Assembly (NCBI RefSeq): GCF_000378945.1
Contig: NZ_KB900539.1
Coordinates: forward strand, 365,241-429,240
DNA length: 64,000 bases
Direction of reading: 5' to 3'
From: Methyloversatilis universalis EHg5
Lineage (GTDB): Bacteria > Pseudomonadota > Gammaproteobacteria > Burkholderiales > Rhodocyclaceae
A program made the position numbers and the translations under genes. The notes beneath the pieces are model-generated. The model was not told the DNA's origin and did not search any database. It saw only the letters and a program-made list of their open reading frames with translations. This document shows, in pieces, positions 33,524 through 44,755 of this stretch (position 1 is the stretch's first letter; each line of letters starts with the position of its first letter).

Positions 33524-35137
33524 ATGCGAAGAACAGACAAGAACCGGGCCCTGCCGCGCGCATTCGCGTTCGCGGCCGGGCTGGCCGCACAGCTCGCGGT
33601 GGCCGGGGCCTATGCCGCGGCGCCGGCGGCCGAAGCGCTGGTCAATACCAAGTGCGCGTCCTGTCACACCGCCAAGGGCGAAGGCAAATGGGACCGCATC
33701 AGCGAAGGCCGCCGCACGCCCGAAGGCTGGGACATGACGGTGGCCCGAATGGGCTTTGCCCACGGCGTCAAGATGAGCCGGGAAGAGCGCGCCACCATCG
33801 TGAAGTACCTGTCCGACGCCTACGGCCTGTCGCCGGACGAGTCGGCGGCCCACCGCTACATCGTGGACCGCACGCCCAGCGTGGTCGAGCACCCGGAGAA
33901 CAAGCTGATCGGCGACACCTGCGCGCGCTGCCATTCCTACGGCCGCATCGCGGTGCAGCGGCGCACCGAAGCGGACTGGCGCAAGCTGGTGCACTTCCAC
34001 GTCGGCCAGTTCCCGGCGATCGAAATCCAGGCCAGCGGCCGCGATCGCAACTGGTTCGAAATCGCCAATGGCGACGCGTCGGTCGAACTGGGCAAGGTGT
34101 ACGGCTTCGAATCCGACAGCTGGACCAAGTGGAAAGCGCAGAAGCCGGCGGATGCCAGCGGCAGCTGGCGCCTGGTGGGCAACAAGCCGGGCAGCGGCGC
34201 CTACGAAGGCACGGCCACGGTGCAGCGCACCGGCGATGACGCCTATGCGGTCACCATGGTGCTGCGCTTCGAGAACGGCAGCAGCGAAACGCTGAAGGGG
34301 TCGGCCATTGTCTACACCGGCCATGAATGGCGCGCCACGCTGAAGAGCGGCGAGCGCACGATCAACCAGATCATGACGCTGGCAGACGGCGGCCGCAGCC
34401 TGTCCGGCCGCTGGTTCGAAGAAGGCTATGACGCGATCGGCGGCACGCTGCGCGCAGTGCGCGCCGACGGTGCGAAGCCCGCGGTGCTGTCGGTGCAGCC
34501 GGCGGCGCTCAAAGCCGGCAGCCGCACCCGCCTGGTCATCAATGGCGTCGGGCTGGACGGTGACGTGAGCCTGGGCGGCGGCGTGAAAGTGCTGTCGGTG
34601 GCTGAGCGCAGCGCGGACCGCGTGGTGGTCGAGGTCGAATCGGCGAAGGACGCCGTGAGCGGCCCGCGCGAAGTGAAGGTGGGCAACGCGCGCAGCGGCG
34701 ACGCGCTCAAGGTCTTCCAGCGCATCGACTACGTGAAGATCACGCCGGACCACCCGATGGCGCGGGTCGGTGGCAATGGCGGCTCGATGAACAAGGTGCC
34801 GGCCCAGCTGGAAGCGCTGGCCTACACCGTGGGCGCCGACGGCAAGAAGGGTACGGCCGACGATGTGGCGCTGGGCGCCATGCCGGCCGCGTGGTCCTTC
34901 GACAACCTGAACAAGGTGGCGGCCGAAATGAAGGACGCCAAGTTCGCCGGTCGCATCGACCAGAACGGTCTGTTCATGACCAATGACGCCGGCCCCAATC
35001 CGGAGCGCAAGTACCGGACCAATAACGCGGGCGAGCTGAAGGTGACCGCGGCGGTCAAGGACGGCACGCGCACGGTCAAGGCCACCGCGCCGCTGATCGT
35101 CACCGTGCAGCGTTTCAACGATCCCCCGATCCGCTGA
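33524..35137 (+). CDS. qhpA: Quinohemoprotein amine dehydrogenase alpha subunit (dihaem cytochrome c)
   Basis: 537 residues. A signal peptide covers about residues 1-33. Two haem c sites follow in the N-terminal domain: Cys44-Cys47-His48 (CASCH) and Cys133-Cys136-His137 (CARCH). The remaining 400 residues form beta-rich domains (GAYEGTATVQRTGDDAYAVT; VLSVQPAALKAGSRTRLVIN, an Ig-like repeat) as in the known alpha subunit. The enzyme oxidises primary amines to aldehyde and ammonia in the periplasm; the alpha subunit receives electrons from the quinone cofactor in gamma and hands them to a soluble acceptor. First gene of an operon that runs to torF copy 2. Confidence 0.93.
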   Translation: MRRTDKNRALPRAFAFAAGLAAQLAVAGAYAAAPAAEALVNTKCASCHTAKGEGKWDRISEGRRTPEGWDMTVARMGFAHGVKMSREERATIVKYLSDAYGLSPDESAAHRYIVDRTPSVVEHPENKLIGDTCARCHSYGRIAVQRRTEADWRKLVHFHVGQFPAIEIQASGRDRNWFEIANGDASVELGKVYGFESDSWTKWKAQKPADASGSWRLVGNKPGSGAYEGTATVQRTGDDAYAVTMVLRFENGSSETLKGSAIVYTGHEWRATLKSGERTINQIMTLADGGRSLSGRWFEEGYDAIGGTLRAVRADGAKPAVLSVQPAALKAGSRTRLVINGVGLDGDVSLGGGVKVLSVAERSADRVVVEVESAKDAVSGPREVKVGNARSGDALKVFQRIDYVKITPDHPMARVGGNGGSMNKVPAQLEALAYTVGADGKKGTADDVALGAMPAAWSFDNLNKVAAEMKDAKFAGRIDQNGLFMTNDAGPNPERKYRTNNAGELKVTAAVKDGTRTVKATAPLIVTVQRFNDPPIR

Positions 35138-35164: not shown

Positions 35165-36607
35165 ATGTCCGACGCCAATCTGCTCTACGTAGACAGCCAC
35201 GCCTTCCACGATGTCGAAGTGAAGGGGCGGCGCGTGCTGCTGCACGTGCCCAGCACCGGCATTTTCGACCTCGACGGCGTGACCACCGAGGTGCTCGACT
35301 TCGTGCGGCCGAAGGCGACCGTCAGTTTCGAGGAGCTGCAGCAGCGCTTCTCGGGGCAAGGGTCGCCCACGCTGATCGCCGACGCGATCGAGGATCTGAA
35401 GTCGCTGGGCGTGCTGCGCGGCGATCCCGCGCAGCCCGATCACGGCCCCGGCATCAGCGTGACCGAATTCCCGCTCAGCACCCTGGTGCTGAACGTGAAT
35501 ACCGGCTGCAACCTGAGCTGCACCTACTGCTACAAGGAAGACCTGACCACCCCGTCCAAGGGCGAGAAGCTCGACTTCGACAAGGCGAAGAAGGGCATCG
35601 AGCTGCTGCTGAAGGAAGGGGCCAAGCGCGACCGCATCAACGTGGTTTTCTTCGGCGGCGAGCCGCTGTCGAACATGCGGCTGATCAAGGCGGTCACCGC
35701 CTACGCCGAGGAGCGCTGCCGCGAAGAGGGCAAGCAGGTCGACTTCTCGCTCACCACCAACGCCACGCTGCTCACCGAAGAGATCGCCGACTGGTTCAAC
35801 GAACATTCCTTCGGCATCTCGATCAGCATGGACGGTCCGCAGGCGGTGCACGACCTGCGCCGCAAGACCATAGGCGGCAAGGGCACCTACGAGGTGGTGG
35901 CGAAGAAGGCGCGCATGCTGCTGTCACGCTACACCGCGCGCTCGGTCGGGGCGCGGGTGACGCTGACGGCGGGCTATTCCGACGTGGCGGCCATCCACCA
36001 TCACCTGAAGGACGAACTGGGCTTCGCCGAAGTGGGTTTCGCGCCGGTCACCAGCAATCCGGTCACCACCTTCAACCTGGTCGGTGACGAACTGCGCGCG
36101 GTGTTCGAGGCGATGAAGACGCTGGGCCGCGAGTACGTGGCGGCGGCGGTCGAGGGCCGAAACATCGGCTTCTCGAACATGCACCAGCTGCTGTCCGACC
36201 TGTACGAGGGCCGCCGCAAGGCGTTGCCCTGCGGTGCCGGCATCGGGCTGCTGGCGGTCGATCACAAGGGCGAACTCAATCTCTGCCACCGCTTCACCGG
36301 CTCCGAGCTGCCGACCTTCGGCAACGTCGACACCGGTATTGCCAAGGCGGAGCTGGGTGCCTTCCTTGAAAACGCGCTCGACCGCTCGGAGCGCGGCTGC
36401 TCGACCTGCCGCATCCGCAACCTGTGTTCGGGCGGCTGCTACCACGAGTCCTACGCCAACTTCAGCGACCCGTATTCGCCGGTCTATCACTACTGCGAAC
36501 TGCTCAGGGAGTGGGTCGATTTCGGCATCGAGGCCTACCTCGAAATCCTCGAAAAGAACCCGGCCTTCCTTCACCAGCACGTCGCGAACAGGAGCTCTGA
36601 ACTATGA
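35165..36607 (+). CDS. qhpD: Radical SAM/SPASM maturase of the amine dehydrogenase gamma subunit
   Basis: 480 residues. The radical SAM cluster motif is Cys115-X3-Cys119-X2-Cys122 ([15 protein letters not shown]), followed by [14 protein letters not shown] and [15 protein letters not shown]-terminal SPASM domain carries auxiliary-cluster cysteines ([19 protein letters not shown] and a last Cys in HYCEL). An N-terminal 100-residue lead resembles a peptide-recognition wing ([20 protein letters not shown]). QhpD makes the Cys-to-Asp/Glu thioether cross-links in the gamma subunit inside the cytoplasm. Its stop overlaps the start of that substrate gene as ATGA, which fits cotranslational pairing. 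Confidence 0.95.
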
Positions 36608-36924
36608 ACCGCTTGAAACCGCTGAACCGCAAGGCCCACCAGATCGAAGCCGCCCCGAACGACGAGGCGGTGGAAAAGGTGGTGTCGATGACCGCCGCCG
36701 TCGCCGGCTGCGCCACCACCTTCGACCCGGGCTGGGAGCTCGATCCTTTCCTCGGCGTGGCCGGCCTGTGCCAGCCGATGGAAGCCGATCTCTACGGCTG
36801 TGCCGACCCCTGCTGGTGGCCGGCCCAGGTGCCGGACACGCTGCACAACTACCAGGACTGGAACACCGGCAAGGACGACGCGGCGCGCGACTGGAAGGCG
36901 CTGCAGAGCGTGTTCCCGAAATAA
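36604..36924 (+). CDS. qhpC: Quinohemoprotein amine dehydrogenase gamma subunit (CTQ precursor)
   Basis: 106 residues. With a leader of 29 residues, every modified position known for the Paracoccus subunit is present in register: Cys36-Glu45, Cys56-Asp62 and Cys70-Asp78 for the three thioether links, and Cys66-Trp72 for the cysteine tryptophylquinone. The motif region reads [19 protein letters not shown]. The leader ([20 protein letters not shown]) has no Sec or Tat features, in line with export by a dedicated ABC transporter and removal by QhpE. The peptide is processed by QhpD (links) and QhpG (tryptophan hydroxylation). Starts inside the qhpD stop. Confidence 0.96.
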
Positions 36925-36955: not shown

Positions 36956-38065
36956 ATGAAGATGAAGACCACGGCGGCCGCACTGGCCGCCAGCCTCGGC
37001 GTCGCGCTGCTCGGCGCCCTTCCGGCCACCGCGTTTGCGGCCAAGGACTATCTGGTGACCGCCGCCCGCCCCAACCTCGTGTTCGTGATGGACGCGAAGG
37101 AGCGCAAGGTGGTGAAGACCCACACCATCCCCAACACTTCGCTCGGCAACAGCCCGCTCACGCTGGTGCATTCGCGTGACGGCAAGATGGCCTACGTCAT
37201 CCACAACCGCTGGGAAACCGTGTCCGGCATCGACCTGGACAGCGGCAAGGAAGTGTTCCGCGCCGAACTGTCCGGCGGCGACATCCGCGGCAAGTCGCCT
37301 TTCCCGATGGACCTCAGCCCGGACGGCAAGGAACTGGCGGTCTATGTGAACCCGACCCAGCTGCTGCCGGGCGAGTACAAGGTGATGGACCCCTACATCG
37401 CCATCTACCGCACCGACGCCGGTACCGACGCCGAGCCGGTGCGCAGGCTCAAGGTGCCGCGCCGGGTGTCCACGCTGGCCTGGTCGCCCAAGGGCGACAC
37501 GCTGTACGCCTTCAGCTGGGACATGCTCAAGCTCGATCCGCAGACCGGCGCGGTCAAGGGTCAGCACCCGTGGCGCAGCTGGAAGAACGGCGACCAGGGC
37601 GAGCCGGACACGCTGGCGGTGTGGCCGCAGTGGGAACAGACCAATGTGTTCGCCACGCCCTACTACGTGACGCACGCCAACAAGAAACCGGGCGATCCGG
37701 CAGCACTGCGCGCCGGCATCTGGTCGCTCGATCTCGAAACCGACAAGGTGCATTTCAAGGAATTCGAAAATGCCGGCGTCGTGCTGTTCTCCACCGTGGT
37801 GAATCCGGTGCGCCGCGACGAAACCTATACCGTCTATACCCAGCTCACCAAGGTGAACACGAAGACCGGCAAGATGGACCGGGTCGATCTCGATCACACC
37901 TACTACAACGTGAATGTGTCGAGCGACGGCAAGGAGCTGTACATCGGCGGCACCCAGGGCGACATCGCGGTGTATGACAGCGCCACGCTGAAGCGCCTCG
38001 GCAATATCCGCACGCCGGGCGGTGGCGATCAGGTGCTCACCTCGCTGCGCATCTTCCAGCGCTGA
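36956..38065 (+). CDS. qhpB: Quinohemoprotein amine dehydrogenase beta subunit
   Basis: 369 residues from the ATG at 36956. A Sec signal peptide ends near ALPATAFA (about residue 28). The mature chain is a seven-bladed beta-propeller like that of methylamine dehydrogenase heavy chain: DYLVTAARPNLVFVMDAKER, FPMDLSPDGKELAVYVNPTQ, VSTLAWSPKGDTLYAFSWDM and NVNVSSDGKELYIGGTQGDI. It shapes the active site over the gamma subunit and binds the amine. Thirty-one bases separate it from qhpC and three from the ABC exporter gene. Confidence 0.94.
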   Translation: MKMKTTAAALAASLGVALLGALPATAFAAKDYLVTAARPNLVFVMDAKERKVVKTHTIPNTSLGNSPLTLVHSRDGKMAYVIHNRWETVSGIDLDSGKEVFRAELSGGDIRGKSPFPMDLSPDGKELAVYVNPTQLLPGEYKVMDPYIAIYRTDAGTDAEPVRRLKVPRRVSTLAWSPKGDTLYAFSWDMLKLDPQTGAVKGQHPWRSWKNGDQGEPDTLAVWPQWEQTNVFATPYYVTHANKKPGDPAALRAGIWSLDLETDKVHFKEFENAGVVLFSTVVNPVRRDETYTVYTQLTKVNTKTGKMDRVDLDHTYYNVNVSSDGKELYIGGTQGDIAVYDSATLKRLGNIRTPGGGDQVLTSLRIFQR

Positions 38066-38068
38066 GCG

Positions 38069-39796
38069 ATGAAAGCCGACGCACTGCCTGTCGCACCGCA
38101 GTCGCCGGCCGCTGCAGCCGCCGCACCGGCGGCGCAGCGGCTGTCCGACCTGTACCGCTGGGCTGCCGGCTTCGTCCGGCCGGAACGCGCGGCGCTGGGT
38201 CGGGTGCTGCTGCTGTCGCTGCTGGCGGTGCTGGCCGGCCTGGCCCAGCCGCTGCTGACCCGCACGCTGATCGACGACGGCATCCTCGCGAGTGACGCGG
38301 GCACCGTGCTGGCGACCGGCGGCTGGATGGTGGCGCTGGCGCTGGCCGCGCTGGCCATCGGCTTCACCTGCCGGCGCATCCACGTGGGTGCGTCGGCCCG
38401 CATTCTTCATGGCATGCGCGAAGCGCTGTTCGCGCATGTGCTCCGGCTGCCGCCGGCGTATTTCGCCCGCACCCGCCAGGGCGACCTGCTGGCCCGCCTC
38501 GAAGGCGACCTGGGCGAAGTGCAGCGCTTCGCGGTCGATGCGCTGCTGTCGGCCATCAATTCGCTGCTGACGCTGGTCGGCACCGTGCTGCTGCTGGCGC
38601 TGCTCAGTCCGAAGCTGGCCCTGCTGCTGGCACTGCTGATGGCGGTCAATGCCGCGGTGCTGTCCTGGGTGCGGCCGCGCATCGAGGCGCTGTCGCGCCA
38701 GTCGCGCGACGCTGGCGTCGAGGTGTCCAGCTTTCTGGTCGAGAAAGTGGGCGCGGTGCGCTGCATACAGACCCATGTCGCCGAGGCGCGCGAACTGTCG
38801 CGGCTGGGCGGCCTGCACGCCACGGTGCGCGAACGCCTGCTGGCCGCCCAGCTGTGGGGCTATCTGGGCGGCGCCTTTCCGAACCTGCTGCTGTCGCTGG
38901 CGGTGATCGGAATTTTCGTCGTCGGCAGCCTGTCCATGCTGGCCGGCGACCCGCTCACGCTGGGCACCCTGGTCGCTTTCTCCACCTGCGTGCAGCGCGC
39001 CAGTGCGCCGCTGCATGCGCTGATGGGCCTCTACCTTCAGTGGCAGCGGGTGAAGGTGGCGCTGGGCCGGGTGGACGAACTGCGCGCGGTACCGCAGCCG
39101 CCCGAGGTGGCGGGCGAACTGCCGGACGGCGCGCTGATGGCGGGTGATCTGGTCGTGCGCGATCTGGCCTGTACCCACGCCGGGGCGCCGCGCGCCGCCT
39201 TCAGCGGACTGAACCTCACGATACCGGCCGGTGCGCGGGTGTGGCTGCGCGGCCCGTCGGGCAGCGGCAAGTCCACCTTCATCGATCTGCTGCAGCGGCT
39301 GATTGAGCCGAGCGCCGGCTGGGTGTCGCTGGGCTGCGTCGACCTGCGCGGCATCGACCGCGCGGCATTACGCCGGCATCTGGTGGTGGTGTCGCAGGAG
39401 GCGGTGCTGTTCACCGGCACGCTGGCCGACAACATCCGCTACGGCCGCCCGGACGCCAGTGAGGCCGACGTTGCCGCGGTGGCGCGTGCCGCCGGCGTCG
39501 ACGACTTCGCCGCCCGTCTGCCGGACGGGCTGGCGACCCGGGTCGGGCCGCGCGGTGCCTCGCTGTCCGGTGGCGAACGCCAGCGGGTGGCGCTGGCGCG
39601 CGCGCTGTTGATGACGCCGGCGGTGCTGGTGATCGACGAAGGCACTTCGTCGCTGGACGGCGCGCTCGAAGCGCGCGCGCTGGCCGCGGTCGACGCGCTG
39701 CTGCCGCGTGCCACCCGCATCGTGGTGAGCCATCGCGCGCTCGACCCGGCGCAGTTCGACCAGGTGATCGACTTCCCGCCGGGAGCGCCGGCATGA
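38069..39796 (+). CDS. qhpF: ABC exporter for the gamma subunit
   Basis: 575 residues: a six-helix ABC type I membrane domain (about 45-330, with FARTRQGDLLARLEGDLGEV at the coupling region) followed by an ATPase domain with Walker A GPSGSGKST, Q-loop VVSQEAVLFTGTLADN, signature LSGGERQRVALARALL, Walker B VLVIDEGTSSLDG and switch His in VSHRALD. All catalytic residues are present. In the characterised system this half-transporter homodimer moves the cross-linked QhpC across the inner membrane. It overlaps the protease gene by four bases. Confidence 0.92.
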   Translation: MKADALPVAPQSPAAAAAAPAAQRLSDLYRWAAGFVRPERAALGRVLLLSLLAVLAGLAQPLLTRTLIDDGILASDAGTVLATGGWMVALALAALAIGFTCRRIHVGASARILHGMREALFAHVLRLPPAYFARTRQGDLLARLEGDLGEVQRFAVDALLSAINSLLTLVGTVLLLALLSPKLALLLALLMAVNAAVLSWVRPRIEALSRQSRDAGVEVSSFLVEKVGAVRCIQTHVAEARELSRLGGLHATVRERLLAAQLWGYLGGAFPNLLLSLAVIGIFVVGSLSMLAGDPLTLGTLVAFSTCVQRASAPLHALMGLYLQWQRVKVALGRVDELRAVPQPPEVAGELPDGALMAGDLVVRDLACTHAGAPRAAFSGLNLTIPAGARVWLRGPSGSGKSTFIDLLQRLIEPSAGWVSLGCVDLRGIDRAALRRHLVVVSQEAVLFTGTLADNIRYGRPDASEADVAAVARAAGVDDFAARLPDGLATRVGPRGASLSGGERQRVALARALLMTPAVLVIDEGTSSLDGALEARALAAVDALLPRATRIVVSHRALDPAQFDQVIDFPPGAPA

Positions 39797-40437
39797 CGGT
39801 GAAGGTGGGGTTGATAGACGGCCCGGTCGGCGCCGGGCTGGCGCACGCGGTGCTCGCCTGTTCCGATCCGCAGGCGCTGCAGAGTGAGGAGGGCGGTCAT
39901 GGCCGGCAGGTGGCCGGCGCGCTGCTCGAACACTGCCCGTCCGCCGGTCTGCTGCTGGCTCCGGTGTTCGACCGCACCCGCGAAGCCGAGGTCGGGCGCG
40001 TGGTCGAGGCGCTGTACTGGCTGGCGGCGCAGGGCGCGCAGTTGATCAATCTGAGTTTCGGCATGGCGGCACCCAGCCGCCGGCTGGCATCGGCCTGCGC
40101 CGAGGTGGCGGCGCAGGGCGTGGTGCTGGTGGCGTCCGCCCCGGCGCGCGGTGCGCCGGTGTACCCGGCTGCTCTCGCCGACTGCATTGCGGTGACCGGT
40201 GACGCGCGCTGCGCGCCGGGCGAAGTGTCCTGGCTGTCGACCGCCGCGGCCGATTTCGGCACCCACCCGCTGATCCGCCCGGGGCGCCCGGATCTGGGCG
40301 GCGGCGCCAGCATCGCCACCGCCCGCATGAGCGGGCTGCTGGCCGCACTGCTGGCCGAAGGCCATGCGCCGCACACGCTGCGCGCGCGGCTGCAGTCCAT
40401 GGCGCTGCACATCGGACCGGAGCGCCGTCATGCCTGA
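39793..40437 (+). CDS. qhpE: Subtilisin-like protease processing the gamma subunit leader
   Basis: 214 residues, starting in the qhpF stop (ATGA). The triad is visible: Asp9 (VGLIDGP), His36 (GGHGRQVAGAL) and Ser173 (GGASIATARMSG). It is a compact subtilase with no signal peptide or prodomain, so it works in the cytoplasm. QhpE cuts off the QhpC leader after cross-linking. One point is odd: the segment that usually carries the oxyanion-hole Asn (AAGN) reads VASAPARGAPVYPA, without Asn, so the hole is probably built differently. The last codons overlap the CcmF-like gene by eight bases. Confidence 0.88.
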   Translation: MTVKVGLIDGPVGAGLAHAVLACSDPQALQSEEGGHGRQVAGALLEHCPSAGLLLAPVFDRTREAEVGRVVEALYWLAAQGAQLINLSFGMAAPSRRLASACAEVAAQGVVLVASAPARGAPVYPAALADCIAVTGDARCAPGEVSWLSTAAADFGTHPLIRPGRPDLGGGASIATARMSGLLAALLAEGHAPHTLRARLQSMALHIGPERRHA

Positions 40438-42589
40438 GCGCTTCGCGCTGATCGTGGCCGCACTGACGGCGCTGCTGCTGTACGCGCTGCCCGGTGCCGG
40501 CGATGCGCTGCTCGCGCTGGCCGCCGCGGCGGCACTGCATGCCGGCCTGCGTGCGCCGCGCCGTGCACAGGCGCTGGCCCTGTCCGCCGGCCTGCTGTGG
40601 GGCGCGCTGTGTGCGCTGGCGCTGCTGCTGCTGACCGACCGCACCGGTGTGCGCTACGTCTGGATCTACAGCTACAGCGGCAGCGCGTTGCCGGCGCATC
40701 TGAAACTGGCCAATCTGTGGGGCGGCGACGAAGGCACGCTGCTGCTGCTCGCCGCCTTCTGCGTCACGCTGGCGGCGCGCGGTGCCGCCGCCCGCACCGC
40801 GCGCCTTGATGCGGCCTCACTGCTGCCGGCCGCCTATGTGCTCATCGTGCTGTGGCTGCGGCCGTTCGCGGCCACGCCGGCGGCGTGGCTGGCGCAGTCC
40901 GCGTCGCAGGGCATGAATGCGCATCTGATGAAGGTGTGGATGCTGCTGCACGCACCGCTCATCCTGGCCGCCTACGCGTGGACGCTGTCGCTGGCCGCGC
41001 CGGCCCTGCAGGCGCTGGCCGGTGCCGCCCCGCGCTGGCCGGCCGGCGCGCTGCCGCACGCCCGCCGGGCCTGGGCGCTGCTTACCGCCGGCATCGGCTT
41101 CGGCATGGTGTGGGCGTTCGAGGACGCGATGTACGGCCAGGTCTGGCACTGGGACCCGGTGCAGACCGCGGTGTTCGCGGTGTGGTGCCTGCTCGGCGCT
41201 CATCTGCACGGGGTCGGCGGCTGGCGCGCCGGCCGCGCCATGTGGCGCTGGGTGCCCGCGACGGCGCTGGCCGCCGCGGCGATGACCGCGCTGGCCATGG
41301 GGGTGACCCGCAACGACCTGCTGGCCAGTTCGCACCGCTACGTCGGTGCCGATACCTGGCCGGCGCATCTGTCCATCGCCGCACTGCTGCTGATTGCCGG
41401 CGTCGCGATGGCGTGGCGTGGCCGGCGCGTGGCGGCCCACGTCGCCCATCGCACCAGCGTCGCGACCTGGGCGCTGCGCGCCACCCAGGTCGGGTTCGCG
41501 CTGATCGGCCTGTGGGCCGCCGGGCACATCGCCTGGGCCTGCTTCGCGCAGTGGCAGGGCACGCCGCGGCCGGACGACCTGCGCCCCTTCTTCGAAACGC
41601 TGCGCAGCTGGGCGCGCGGCAGCGAACTGCCGCTGCTGCGCACCGCCTTCGCGCAGTGGGATGTCGATGGCTATGCGCTGGCGCGCCACCTGCTGTGGCC
41701 GATGATGCTCATCGGCCTGGTCGGCGGCTGGTTCTTCCTGCGCCGGCTGTCGGCCCGCATGGCTGCGGCGTCGCTGCTCATCGTGCTGCTGGCCTGCGCC
41801 GCGGTGCTGCTGCAGGGCGGCCTGCTGGCGGAGCGCTATGCCGGAGGCGGCGTGCTGTCGCAGCAGATCGTGGCGCTGCTGCCGCGGGTCGACGCCGCAC
41901 TGCTGGCCGGTGGCTATCTGGCGCTGGCCTGTGCCGCGTGGAGCGTGCATGCCGCCTGGCATGCGCGGCGCTCCGCCGGCTATGCGCTGCCGCTGGGCCT
42001 GCTGCACGTGGGCGCGGTGATCGCGCTGTGGGGCGGGCTGGTGGCGACCGCGCTGAATGGCTATTCGCAGCATCTGGTCGGGCTGGGCGCCGACTGGCAG
42101 GCCGCTCCGGGTGGCTATGCCTTCCGCGTGACCGGGCTGGCGGTGGACCGTGCGCCGGATGGCGGGCGCGGTCCGGCCGACAGCGCCTTCCGTGCGGTGG
42201 CCGAGGTCGAGCTCGATACGCCGGCGCACGGCGTGCTGCGCGGCCAGACCCTGTACCGCGACGGCCGCAGCGCCATCGCCGGCTATGCCGGGCCGGTGCG
42301 CCAGATCTGCGAAATCCTGGATTACCGCTATGCCCGCTACGCCGACCGGCCGGGCTATGTGCTGCATCCCTTCATAGACCGCAGCTGGTCGCGCGACCTG
42401 CAGCTGTGGGTATCGACCTCGGCCGCGGTGGCCGCGCTCGAAGGCGGGCCGCAGACCGCGCAGGCGGTGGTGGTGCTGCGCGTGCTGCCCTTCGCTTCGC
42501 TGCTGTGGCTGGGGCTCACGCTGGCGACGGTCGGCGCATTGTGGCTGGCGCTGCGTGCGCCGGCCGGAAGCAGGGAGGTGACTGCATGA
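40430..42589 (+). CDS. CcmF-like cytochrome c haem lyase paralogue inside the QHNDH operon
   Basis: 719 residues with some 14-16 hydrophobic segments. Several marks of the haem lyase subunit CcmF can be followed: LWGGDEGTLLLL (residues 96-107) for the WGGHEGS segment, His174 in LLHAPL for the HPP histidine, WHWDPVQT (239-246) for the tryptophan-rich WWD core, His260 eighteen residues further, His302 in ASSHRYVGAD and His526 in LLHVGA. So all four histidines thought to bind or approach haem in CcmF seem kept, while the WWD core is shortened. It overlaps qhpE by eight bases and qhpG by four, so it is a true operon member. A dedicated role in haem attachment to the dihaem alpha subunit is inferred; I do not recall it among the usual qhp genes. 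Confidence 0.82.
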   Translation: MPERFALIVAALTALLLYALPGAGDALLALAAAAALHAGLRAPRRAQALALSAGLLWGALCALALLLLTDRTGVRYVWIYSYSGSALPAHLKLANLWGGDEGTLLLLAAFCVTLAARGAAARTARLDAASLLPAAYVLIVLWLRPFAATPAAWLAQSASQGMNAHLMKVWMLLHAPLILAAYAWTLSLAAPALQALAGAAPRWPAGALPHARRAWALLTAGIGFGMVWAFEDAMYGQVWHWDPVQTAVFAVWCLLGAHLHGVGGWRAGRAMWRWVPATALAAAAMTALAMGVTRNDLLASSHRYVGADTWPAHLSIAALLLIAGVAMAWRGRRVAAHVAHRTSVATWALRATQVGFALIGLWAAGHIAWACFAQWQGTPRPDDLRPFFETLRSWARGSELPLLRTAFAQWDVDGYALARHLLWPMMLIGLVGGWFFLRRLSARMAAASLLIVLLACAAVLLQGGLLAERYAGGGVLSQQIVALLPRVDAALLAGGYLALACAAWSVHAAWHARRSAGYALPLGLLHVGAVIALWGGLVATALNGYSQHLVGLGADWQAAPGGYAFRVTGLAVDRAPDGGRGPADSAFRAVAEVELDTPAHGVLRGQTLYRDGRSAIAGYAGPVRQICEILDYRYARYADRPGYVLHPFIDRSWSRDLQLWVSTSAAVAALEGGPQTAQAVVVLRVLPFASLLWLGLTLATVGALWLALRAPAGSREVTA

Positions 42590-43923
42590 ACGACATGACC
42601 GTGCTCGGACTGGGGCCGGCGGCCTGCCTGCTGGCGCTGGCACTGGCGCGCCACGGCATGCGTCCGCGGTTGCTGGGTAGCCGGCGCAGCCGGCCGGCGG
42701 TGGAAGGCGTGTCGCAGCGGGTGGTGGAGGCGCTGCGCCAGTCCGGCTGCAGCCACGCGCTGGATCTGCTCGGGCCGCGCTGGCAGCGGGTGTCCTGCTG
42801 GAACGCGCAGGAAGTGGAGATGAATGGCGAGTTCGTGGTCGAGCGCAGCGCATTCGACCAGGCGCTGCTGCGCGACGTGAAGGCCGCCGGCATCGAGGTG
42901 AAGGAAGGTCTGGTGCGCAGCGTGGACCCGCTGCCGGAGCCGGGGCGGGCGGTCGTGTTCGAGCACGCGAACGGCCGCCGGCAGACCCTGCGCGCGGCGC
43001 TGCTGGCCGACTGTCGCGGCCATACCGCGCCCAAGACCGCGGCCGACCGCCTGGCCGGCCACACGCTGGTGTCACTCGGCCGCAGTTTCGACGGCGCGCG
43101 CGCACAGTCGCGCACCACCTTCATCGAATCCTTCGAAGCCGGCTGGGCCTGGGGCGGCGTGGATCCGGCCGGCCGCGCCCATGTACAGGTGGTGGTGCTG
43201 CCGGAACTGCTGGTCGCGCACGACGGTGACCTCGATGCCGCGCACGCCGCCTGCATGCTGATGCTCAGCCGGCTGCCGAGCCGCTTCGGCCGTGCGCTGC
43301 AGCCGACCGGGCCGGCACGGGCGCGCGGCATACAGCCGGCGCTGCGCGGCGTGATCGCGGAAGCCGACTGGCTGCGCATCGGCGACGCCGCCTATACCTG
43401 CGACCCGCTGTCCGGCCACGGCATGTTCGAGGCGGCGTCGGCCGCCATCGCCGCGGTGCCGGTGATCAACACGCTGCTGCAGCGACCACAGTCGTCGGCA
43501 CTGGCACTGCGCTATCTCGACGAGCGTGCCGAATCGGTGTTCCGCTCGCGCATCGAGGCGGCGCACCAGCACTACGCGACCGAAACCCACTGGCGGGACG
43601 AGGCCTTCTGGGCGCGCATGACCCGTGCGCCTTCGCTGGCGCCGCTGCAGGCGGCGCGGCCGGGGCGCGCCTCCTTCGCATCGCGGCCGGTGGTCGAGGA
43701 CGGCTACATCGTTGAACGCCGCGTGGTGGTGAGCGGCGAACACCCGCGTGGCGTGCGTTTCATCGACGGCATCGATCTCGGCCGGCTGGACGAACTGCTG
43801 CATGCCGGCGCGCCGGCCGCACCCGCCGACATCGGCCAGCACCTGCAGGCGCCGCCGGAGGCGGTGGCGCGCGCGCTGCACTGGCTGCAGGCGCAGTCCC
43901 TTCTTACCCATGCCGGGCACTGA
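42586..43923 (+). CDS. qhpG: FAD-dependent monooxygenase for CTQ formation
   Basis: 445 residues, with GGGAGG before the ATG that overlaps the preceding stop (ATGA). The Rossmann FAD site is MTVLGLGPAACLLALALARHG; the second FAD motif GDAAYTCDPLSGHGMFEAAS is typical of flavin monooxygenases of the hydroxylase class. LLADCRGHTAPK and the C-terminal 110 residues (REVVVSGEH-like segment and LDELLHAGAPAAPADIG) complete the QhpG pattern. The Paracoccus enzyme hydroxylates the QhpC tryptophan twice to start quinone formation, acting on the cross-linked precursor in the cytoplasm. Followed after 37 bases by torF copy 2. Confidence 0.9.
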   Translation: MNDMTVLGLGPAACLLALALARHGMRPRLLGSRRSRPAVEGVSQRVVEALRQSGCSHALDLLGPRWQRVSCWNAQEVEMNGEFVVERSAFDQALLRDVKAAGIEVKEGLVRSVDPLPEPGRAVVFEHANGRRQTLRAALLADCRGHTAPKTAADRLAGHTLVSLGRSFDGARAQSRTTFIESFEAGWAWGGVDPAGRAHVQVVVLPELLVAHDGDLDAAHAACMLMLSRLPSRFGRALQPTGPARARGIQPALRGVIAEADWLRIGDAAYTCDPLSGHGMFEAASAAIAAVPVINTLLQRPQSSALALRYLDERAESVFRSRIEAAHQHYATETHWRDEAFWARMTRAPSLAPLQAARPGRASFASRPVVEDGYIVERRVVVSGEHPRGVRFIDGIDLGRLDELLHAGAPAAPADIGQHLQAPPEAVARALHWLQAQSLLTHAGH

Positions 43924-43960: not shown

Positions 43961-44755
43961 ATGACAAGAAACCGACTGAACGTCCTGCTGTGCGCGCTGC
44001 TGGCCGGCGCACTGCCGCTGTCGGCCCAGGCTGAAGAAGCGGCTGCGCCGGCGTACACGATCACGTCGAACATCGGCGTGTTCTCGCAGTACATTTTCCG
44101 CGGCATTTCGTACACGCAGGAAAACCCGGCGGTGCAGGGCGGCTTCGATTTCGCGCACGAGAGCGGCGCCTATCTGGGCATCTGGGGCACCAATGTGAGC
44201 GATCTGGCGCTGTCGAACGCGACCGGTGAGATCGACGTGTACGGTGGCTATGCCAAGACCTACGGCGACTGGACCTTCGACGTGGGCTTCCTGCAGTTCA
44301 TCTTTCCGGGCGGCAAGTACGACCTGACGGGCGGTGGCACCGAAACGCTGAACACGCTGGAACTGAATGCGGCGGTGAGCTGGAAGTTCGTGCAGCTGAA
44401 GTACTCGTACGCGGTGACCGACTACTTCGGTTTCAGCACGAAGTCGTTCGGCGCGGATTCGGACGGATCGGACTACATCGAGCTGAACGCGAACTACGAG
44501 TTCATGCCGAGCTGGGTGGTGAACGCGCACGTGGGTCACCAGAAGGTGAAGAACTACAGCGACTACGACTTCACCGACTGGAAGCTGGGCGTGACGAAGA
44601 ACTTCGAAGGCGGCTGGCAGGCGTCGGTGGCCTACATCGACACGAATGCGGACAAGACGCTGTACACGATCTGTGACAACGCCGGTGGTGTGCAGACGCG
44701 CTGCAAGGACACCGGCGACAGCAAGTGGCTGGCCTACATCAAGCGCACCTTCTGA
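43961..44755 (+). CDS. TorF-family putative porin, copy 2
   Basis: 264 residues, with GGAG nine bases before the ATG. It differs from copy 1 mainly in the signal peptide (RNRLNVLLCALLAGALPLSA) and in a few loops, for example LTGGGTETLNTL against DPSGESLNTL, and the insert AGGVQTR near the C terminus. The conserved barrel start TITSNIGVFSQYIFRGISYT and the C-terminal IKRTF are identical. No terminator separates it from qhpG, so it is probably read with the QHNDH genes and serves as their outer-membrane channel. Confidence 0.87.
   Translation: MTRNRLNVLLCALLAGALPLSAQAEEAAAPAYTITSNIGVFSQYIFRGISYTQENPAVQGGFDFAHESGAYLGIWGTNVSDLALSNATGEIDVYGGYAKTYGDWTFDVGFLQFIFPGGKYDLTGGGTETLNTLELNAAVSWKFVQLKYSYAVTDYFGFSTKSFGADSDGSDYIELNANYEFMPSWVVNAHVGHQKVKNYSDYDFTDWKLGVTKNFEGGWQASVAYIDTNADKTLYTICDNAGGVQTRCKDTGDSKWLAYIKRTF
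44141..44241 (+). repeat. 101-bp stretch identical to 31372-31472 (torF direct repeat, right copy)
   Basis: Exact match to the run in torF copy 1, in the same orientation, inside a longer near-identical stretch (about 44039-44325). The synonymous positions are also unchanged, which points to recent duplication or gene conversion rather than selection on protein alone. Confidence 0.9.

Follow-up and report, generated by a model that had tools for sequence, protein, structure and literature searches.

We analysed a stretch of 64,000 nucleotides (the window) from Methyloversatilis universalis EHg5, which carries a gene cluster for quinohemoprotein amine dehydrogenase (QHNDH) with an additional gene, named X here, for a predicted CcmF-like haem lyase. 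The window corresponds to positions 365241-429240 of contig C1 in a two-contig genome of 4.09 Mb, and the closest relatives of this genome by QhpD are Methyloversatilis. X is an open reading frame (ORF) at 40430-42589 on the forward strand, and it encodes 719 amino acids with a single terminal stop. The gene order of the cluster is qhpADCBFE-X-G, in which A, D, C, B, F, E and G stand in the order of the published set. The end of qhpE at 40437 overlaps the start of X by 8 bp, and the end of X overlaps the start of qhpG at 42586 by 4 bp (ATGA); the coordinates, the frame and both overlaps agree with those of the original prediction, which was made from the sequence of the window. By these overlaps, and by the presence of qhpD on the same locus in 45 of 58 loci with X, X is a member of the qhp cluster by physical linkage.

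All genes of the cluster lie on the forward strand. The qhpA gene (33524-35137; TIGR03908, 724.5 bits) encodes the dihaem alpha subunit with the motifs CASCH and CARCH, which we propose as the substrate of X, and is followed by qhpD for the radical S-adenosylmethionine maturase (35165-36607; TIGR03906, 802.3 bits). The gamma subunit precursor gene qhpC (36604-36924; 106 amino acids with four cysteines) was assigned by its place, length, cysteines and cluster conservation rather than by a family model. The beta subunit gene qhpB is located at about 36956-38065 (TIGR03907, 489.9 bits), its start having been chosen by visual inspection at the Met that precedes the signal peptide. Next come qhpF for the ABC exporter (38069-39796; PF00664 and PF00005) and qhpE for the subtilisin-like protease (39793-40437; NF049966, 216.9 bits), and X is followed by qhpG for the flavin monooxygenase (42586-43923; NF049967, 415.7 bits). 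The scores of QhpA, QhpD, QhpB, QhpE and QhpG are all above their NCBIfam cut-offs. The published set is qhpABCDEFGR of Paracoccus denitrificans and Pseudomonas putida, and in the accessible part of the source it contains no haem lyase (PMC7876137), in line with the claim that the known qhp set has no such member.

The family models place X among haem-handling proteins. X passes the model of the haem-handling superfamily PF01578 (45.8 bits, gathering cut-off 29.9), and it falls below the CcmF/NrfE model TIGR00353 (57.6 bits, cut-off 569) and below both NrfE models (53.2 and 50.8 bits, cut-offs 394 and 927.3). We examined its residues by aligning 55 X proteins, that of the window and those of 54 of the 58 loci with near-copies included, to the CcmF of the same genome, E. 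coli CcmF and NrfE; three truncated or broken rows (L055, L061 and L063) and one locus with no clean ORF (L051) were left out. The four histidines that had been matched to the functional histidines of CcmF are invariant (55/55 each). His174 (40949-40951) and His302 (41333-41335) are equivalent to the periplasmic haem ligands His173 and His303 of E. coli CcmF, and His260 (41207-41209) and His526 (42005-42007) are equivalent to the transmembrane haem b ligands His261 and His491. We take the names P-His1 and P-His2, and those of the transmembrane histidines, to belong to these E. coli residue numbers.

The WWD segment of X spans Trp228 to Trp252 (41111-41185). Within it Trp228, Ala229, Asp242 and Trp252 correspond to Trp229, Ala230, Asp243 and Trp253 of CcmF, and they are kept in 55, 54, 55 and 55 of the 55 rows, respectively. 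Trp215 (41072-41074; 55/55) is equivalent to Trp216 of E. coli CcmF. In CcmF, the periplasmic haem is positioned by W229, A230 and D243 according to an excerpt of PMC10746174, and W216 and W253 are described as a proposed electron relay in an excerpt of PMC10663686. Eight of the nine CcmF working positions checked are invariant in X, and the ninth, Ala229, is kept in 54 of 55 rows; with a background of 49 invariant columns among 719, this corresponds to p 2e-9 on the assumption that every position behaves in the same way, an assumption that does not hold for Trp and His. The shortened WWD core that had been described did not hold, because residues 228-252 of X and 229-253 of E. coli CcmF run in step and only the letters differ, YGQVWHWDPVQT for WGGWWFWDPVEN. 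The acidic residue in place of His in WGGHEGS was confirmed (Asp in 46 of the 55 rows, Glu in the other 9), while HAP for HPP stood only in part, with Ala in 37 rows and Pro in 18, so that this position is variable.

The X family also has invariant residues of its own, namely H165, W170, M226, H240, Q245, T246, S301, W410 and C627-x3-D631-Y632. Among them, His165, His240 and Cys627 have no counterpart in the aligned CcmF rows, nor Cys627 in the NrfE row, and His240 lies inside the WWD segment (55/55). Cys627 (42308-42310; 55/55) is the sole invariant cysteine of the family, and it belongs to a CExxDY motif whose Glu is kept in 54 of 55 rows. The secondary structure of the model described below puts this residue in the domain that separates the final two long helices, and by analogy with CcmF it may be periplasmic.

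An AlphaFold2 model of X was built from a 32-row alignment, with a predicted local distance difference test (pLDDT) score of 87.6 and a predicted template modelling (pTM) score of 0.92; the confidence is lower around residues 611-650 (blocks of 62-79), the part that holds Cys627. When we compared the model with the PDB using Foldseek, 183 matches with E up to 10 were returned, and the only one below E 0.001 was CcmF 6zmq (E 1.7e-13, template modelling scores 0.58/0.69, 18% identity). In a quick tree, 21 X proteins were split from 19 CcmF and NrfE proteins by a fully supported branch, although support comes from the SH-like approximate likelihood ratio test (SH-aLRT) only, the branches are long and some rows have odd composition. 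Judged by its sequence, X is a deep lineage of its own and not a recent copy of CcmF. It had been called a CcmF paralogue, which stands in the broad sense; its place outside CcmF plus NrfE, on long branches, does not fit a narrower one.

Detailed comparison with known systems gave a similar result. X shares with CcmF (E. coli b2196 and T. thermophilus 6zmq) the fold, the four haem-ligand histidines, a gapless WWD loop, the Trp relay and the domain that separates the final two long helices. On the contrary, X has WHWDPVQT where CcmF has WFWDPVEN, the acidic residue in the WGGHEGS motif and the additional invariant His165, His240 and Cys627, and no ccm genes adjoin it in the window cluster; it forms a separate clade and is placed in the qhp cluster, and thus is not CcmF proper. 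In the tree, NrfE is no nearer to X than CcmF is. CcsA and CcmC resemble X in the WxWD haem-handling loop and PF01578, but X has the full length of CcmF with its transmembrane and C-terminal parts. The ligand histidines, the WWD residues, the Trp relay and the modelled fold all agree with CcmF, as does PF01578 with the prediction of a CcmF-type haem-handling protein, and we suggest that X is probably a CcmF-type lyase in mechanism, with a predicted lyase activity. The appropriate label for X is CcmF-like by mechanism, rather than CcmF or NrfE.

X is not the only protein of this kind in its genome. We found a separate ccm cluster, all on one strand, in which CcmA, CcmB, CcmC, CcmE, CcmF, CcmG (DsbE family) and CcmI are over the model cut-offs and a CcmH-like gene matches the NrfF model below its cut-off. 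The CcmF of this cluster is a normal one (766.5 bits on TIGR00353, cut-off 569), and X is 27% identical to it over residues 28-324. The case in which X would be the sole CcmF of the genome, named beforehand as fatal to a dedicated role, is ruled out by this cluster. Another PF01578 protein, presumably CcsA/YpjD-like and with no bearing on the present finding, is encoded outside the ccm cluster (L003:1102-2109, forward strand).

The survey of qhp operons that the original prediction had proposed revealed a tight linkage between X and qhp. A scan of contigs for X returned 73 stretches that fit a pattern, 58 of which were confirmed as relatives, in Methyloversatilis, Thauera, Azoarcus, Pseudomonas, Emcibacter, Rhodospirillales and others. 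In addition to the 45 loci with qhpD alongside, 10 of the 13 without it are in genomes that carry QhpD elsewhere, and qhpD was found in 55 of the 58 X-bearing assemblies in all. Several of these 13 loci are short contigs, where qhp genes may lie beyond the contig end, and at two of them (L042 and L043) other qhp genes adjoin X. Among 70 loci with near-copies included, the upstream neighbour of X is qhpE in 25, and the downstream neighbour is qhpA in 23 or qhpG in 15. Two genomes, Thauera Sel9 (L013 and L037 on one contig) and G1135, have two qhp clusters each, with one X for each cluster.

The linkage is also seen at the level of whole genomes. In a family-level survey of 199 genomes, QhpD was found in 29 and X in 11 (E 1e-60), and all 11 fall among the 29 (Fisher p 9e-11). 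At the same threshold X was found in none of the 170 genomes of this sample without QhpD, and it is to the family-level sample that the absence of X outside qhp genomes refers. When we searched 36 genomes with QhpD or QhpA, 13 contained X at 830-971 bits and all other matches were at or below 146 bits, leaving no grey zone in the calls. Matches of any level were found in 34 of the 36, the exceptions being G742 and G1048, and in 13/13 genomes the distance from X to a qhpD is about 6.5 kb or less. Within one genus of 25 genomes, QhpD is present in 24 and X in 21, all of them with QhpD, and 22/22 X genes lie within 4 kb of qhpD. Searches for QhpA at class level (2/369 over the cut-off) and for QhpD at order level (1/200) gave too few qhp genomes to be used alone, and a plasmid search returned only remote CcsA matches in three haloarchaeal records.

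Every X genome of both sets (13/13 and 21/21) has a second, CcmF-level match, indicating that X is an addition. This rules out that X stands in where System I is missing. Such a match is also present in 21 of the 23 qhp genomes that lack X, and G742 and G1048 have none.

QhpA is the sole exported protein with a CXXCH motif that is widely common to X loci, in a survey based on mechanical ORF calls of at least 90 amino acids. Together with the linkage, this makes QhpA the likely substrate of X. Another cytochrome of the cluster is not favoured as substrate; eight other CXXCH ORFs were found among the 70 X loci, in eight loci. QhpD, which is an iron-sulphur enzyme of the cytoplasm, shows a CXXCH motif as well at 14 of 85 loci.

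Based on these observations, we think it fairly probable that X serves QhpA as a dedicated haem lyase in an accessory role; X would not be essential, since many qhp clusters do without it. X would be a System I-type holocytochrome c synthase that is made together with QHNDH and attaches both c haems of the alpha subunit. By homology, an electron would pass from the transmembrane haem b at His260 and His526 via Trp215 and Trp252 to a second haem, which would be held at the periplasmic face by the WWD loop with His174 and His302 and joined to the reduced CXXCH cysteines of QhpA. The haem would be supplied by the general CcmABCDE of the cell, and in clusters without X the general CcmF presumably attaches the haems. 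The gain is likely to be capacity or speed, given an enzyme that is induced to high abundance, or a coupling of haem attachment to assembly.

Here, we need to consider several observations that weigh against a dedicated haem lyase for QhpA. First, X is absent from 23 of the 36 qhp-bearing genomes, and G804, from the genus of G886, has cleanly lost X and keeps qhpADCB (L169); its region from the upstream neighbour to qhpA aligns with both X flanks of L138 (79% and 92% identity), and X is missing between them. By sequence this loss would argue against a strict need of X for active QHNDH, and as a natural deletion of X, G804 is a useful control. Two further rows without X (L152 and L153) are short contigs of G728, in which loss at assembly is possible, and the search of that genome did not return X either. 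On the QhpD tree, X is scattered with at least nine changes, by repeated loss or transfer. Second, QhpA has two ordinary CXXCH motifs with X (50 of 51 full-length rows, the exceptional one beginning at a contig end) and without it (27/27), identical rows being merged and partial rows dropped (three with X, one without). The spacing of the motifs overlaps as well (88-95 with X, 87-93 without), indicating that, in contrast to the case of NrfE, there is no unusual motif for which a special lyase would be needed; an odd QhpA haem motif as the reason for X is thereby ruled out. Third, the distances of X agree only moderately with those of QhpD (Spearman 0.38; 8 of 2000 permutations were as high), QhpA (0.39) and QhpB (0.23), in a test of 22 of 43 loci from which L048 and near-identical rows were dropped. 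For comparison, the value between QhpD and QhpA is 0.53, suggesting that X may occasionally have passed from one cluster to another. Fourth, a scan of ten window genes revealed no partner resembling CcmH or NrfFG. Finally, three of the 58 X assemblies (1.5, 1.8 and 3.9 Mb) gave no qhpD, and four alphaproteobacterial loci (L052, L053, L056 and L062) have no qhp genes around X, with at least 2.6 kb upstream covered. Since these four genomes have QhpD elsewhere, they suggest a functional tie rather than mere neighbourhood.

The family-specific residues could point to a more elaborate lyase, self-contained and specific for its substrate, that couples haem attachment of QhpA to the arrival of the crosslinked gamma subunit. 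In it Cys627 would replace the thiol partner CcmH/NrfF, and His165 and His240 would hold the haem until assembly is right. We regard this version as doubtful; if true, X would be, to our knowledge, the first example of a haem lyase reserved for a cytochrome whose CXXCH motifs are ordinary. A check of haem loading ahead of quinone maturation, as offered in the original prediction, would be a further hypothetical role.

The same residues have been considered for a role in cofactor maturation, in which X would attach no haem and would oxidise, or help to close, the dihydroxy-tryptophan/cysteine of the exported gamma subunit to cysteine tryptophylquinone (CTQ), with electrons passing to the quinone pool or to the haems of QhpA. 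The final oxidation to CTQ is a periplasmic step with no assigned enzyme and has been suggested for the QhpA haems in the accessible part of PMC7876137, and the absence of His165, His240 and Cys627 from the aligned CcmF rows would suit a separate function. However, the residues that position the haem (Trp228, Ala229, Asp242, His174 and His302) are kept, and an electron conduit alone would not need them. Moreover, qhp clusters without X are common, and the gene set in that part of PMC7876137 names no such gene, although the X content of those genomes was not part of the comparison. Thus this role is unlikely in our view.

The standard CXXCH motifs of QhpA and the intact CcmF working residues would also fit an additional haem lyase with a wider range, whose induction along with the operon would raise cytochrome c maturation in general, for QhpA and its electron acceptors, with no selectivity for QhpA. 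Such a general booster should be expected elsewhere too, but X was found in no family-level genome without qhpD and forms one clade far from CcmF, and we give little credence to this explanation. We consider it very improbable that X carries electrons in the membrane for the working enzyme, using its haem b to link QHNDH with the quinone pool; the two transmembrane haem ligands are invariant, as is the Trp relay, but the periplasmic haem site and the WWD loop are kept too, and many qhp clusters do without X. It is hardly credible that X is a hitch-hiker, or a duplicate in decay, that plays no part in QHNDH, since the absence of X from most of the 36 qhp genomes and its clean loss in G804 are set against long open frames, invariant working residues in 55 aligned members and qhpD in all but three X-bearing assemblies, including the four with non-qhp neighbours of X.

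For a dedicated lyase of QhpA, a precedent is NrfE, a CcmF paralogue encoded in the operon of its target cytochrome, as described in an excerpt of PMC12285233. While NrfE serves the CXXCK haem of NrfA, the putative substrate of X has ordinary CXXCH motifs, and X is flanked by qhpE and qhpG with no nrfF or nrfG alongside. CcmF-family lyases are regarded as general, and the dedicated NrfE is explained by the odd CXXCK motif. That a separate lyase lineage goes with a single enzyme whose motifs are ordinary raises the question why some organisms need X, and closely related qhp clusters with and without X offer a natural comparison. X adds a putative step to the maturation of QHNDH, and as a divergent CcmF with its working residues kept it is a filter for what the core chemistry requires. 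In the open-access literature we found no description of an X-type haem lyase with an amine dehydrogenase, which is no proof of novelty given that subscription papers lie mostly outside it. PMC5023235 mentions, in its accessible part, a plasmid with flanks of 'qhpX', the nature of which is not stated there, and gives the cluster as qhpRADCBFE. It also reports a qhpA deletion in Methyloversatilis universalis FAM5.

Directly after qhpG, the window encodes a TorF-like putative porin (43961-44755, forward strand; PF09694, 251.5 bits). Its gene family occurs in 14 of 70 X-bearing loci and in none of 28 loci without X, near-copies not being removed, and the protein may be an outer-membrane channel for amines.

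A gene pair of the U32 type, resembling UbiU and UbiV, was observed in or beside qhp clusters at 26 of 98 loci, with both members in 25 (near-copies included). Examples are L147:12270-14163, L140:4363-6496 on the reverse strand, L159:13281-15264 and L017:6850-8813, and there are 22 further loci. The first member belongs to PF01136, and three members scanned gave 84-94 bits on the UbiU model (cut-off 440). The second is cysteine-rich and gave no family match in the two members scanned; we take it to resemble UbiV. Among 85 qhpD loci, the U32 gene is found in 24, of which 21 have no qhpG in the stretch and three have it (L013, L144 and L141, the last cut by the stretch end), while 29 have qhpG alone and 32 have neither. 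At the level of genomes, QhpG did not exceed the cut-off in 15 of the 36, and the pair is present in a fetched cluster of 10 of these 15 compared with 5 of the 21 with QhpG (p 0.017, not corrected for kinship). The chemistry of UbiU and UbiV is an oxygen-independent hydroxylation. They belong to the O2-independent ubiquinone pathway, as stated in an excerpt of PMC6747719, and nothing was found in the open-access literature that links U32 to tryptophylquinone. By analogy, the pair may act as a hydroxylase that needs no oxygen and produces the CTQ precursor, replacing the O2-dependent flavoprotein QhpG in oxygen-poor life; against such a replacement, 5 of the 15 genomes without QhpG have no pair in the fetched stretch. 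In G659, which has two qhp clusters (L141 and L147), X and qhpG are present in one cluster only and the U32 pair lies near both.

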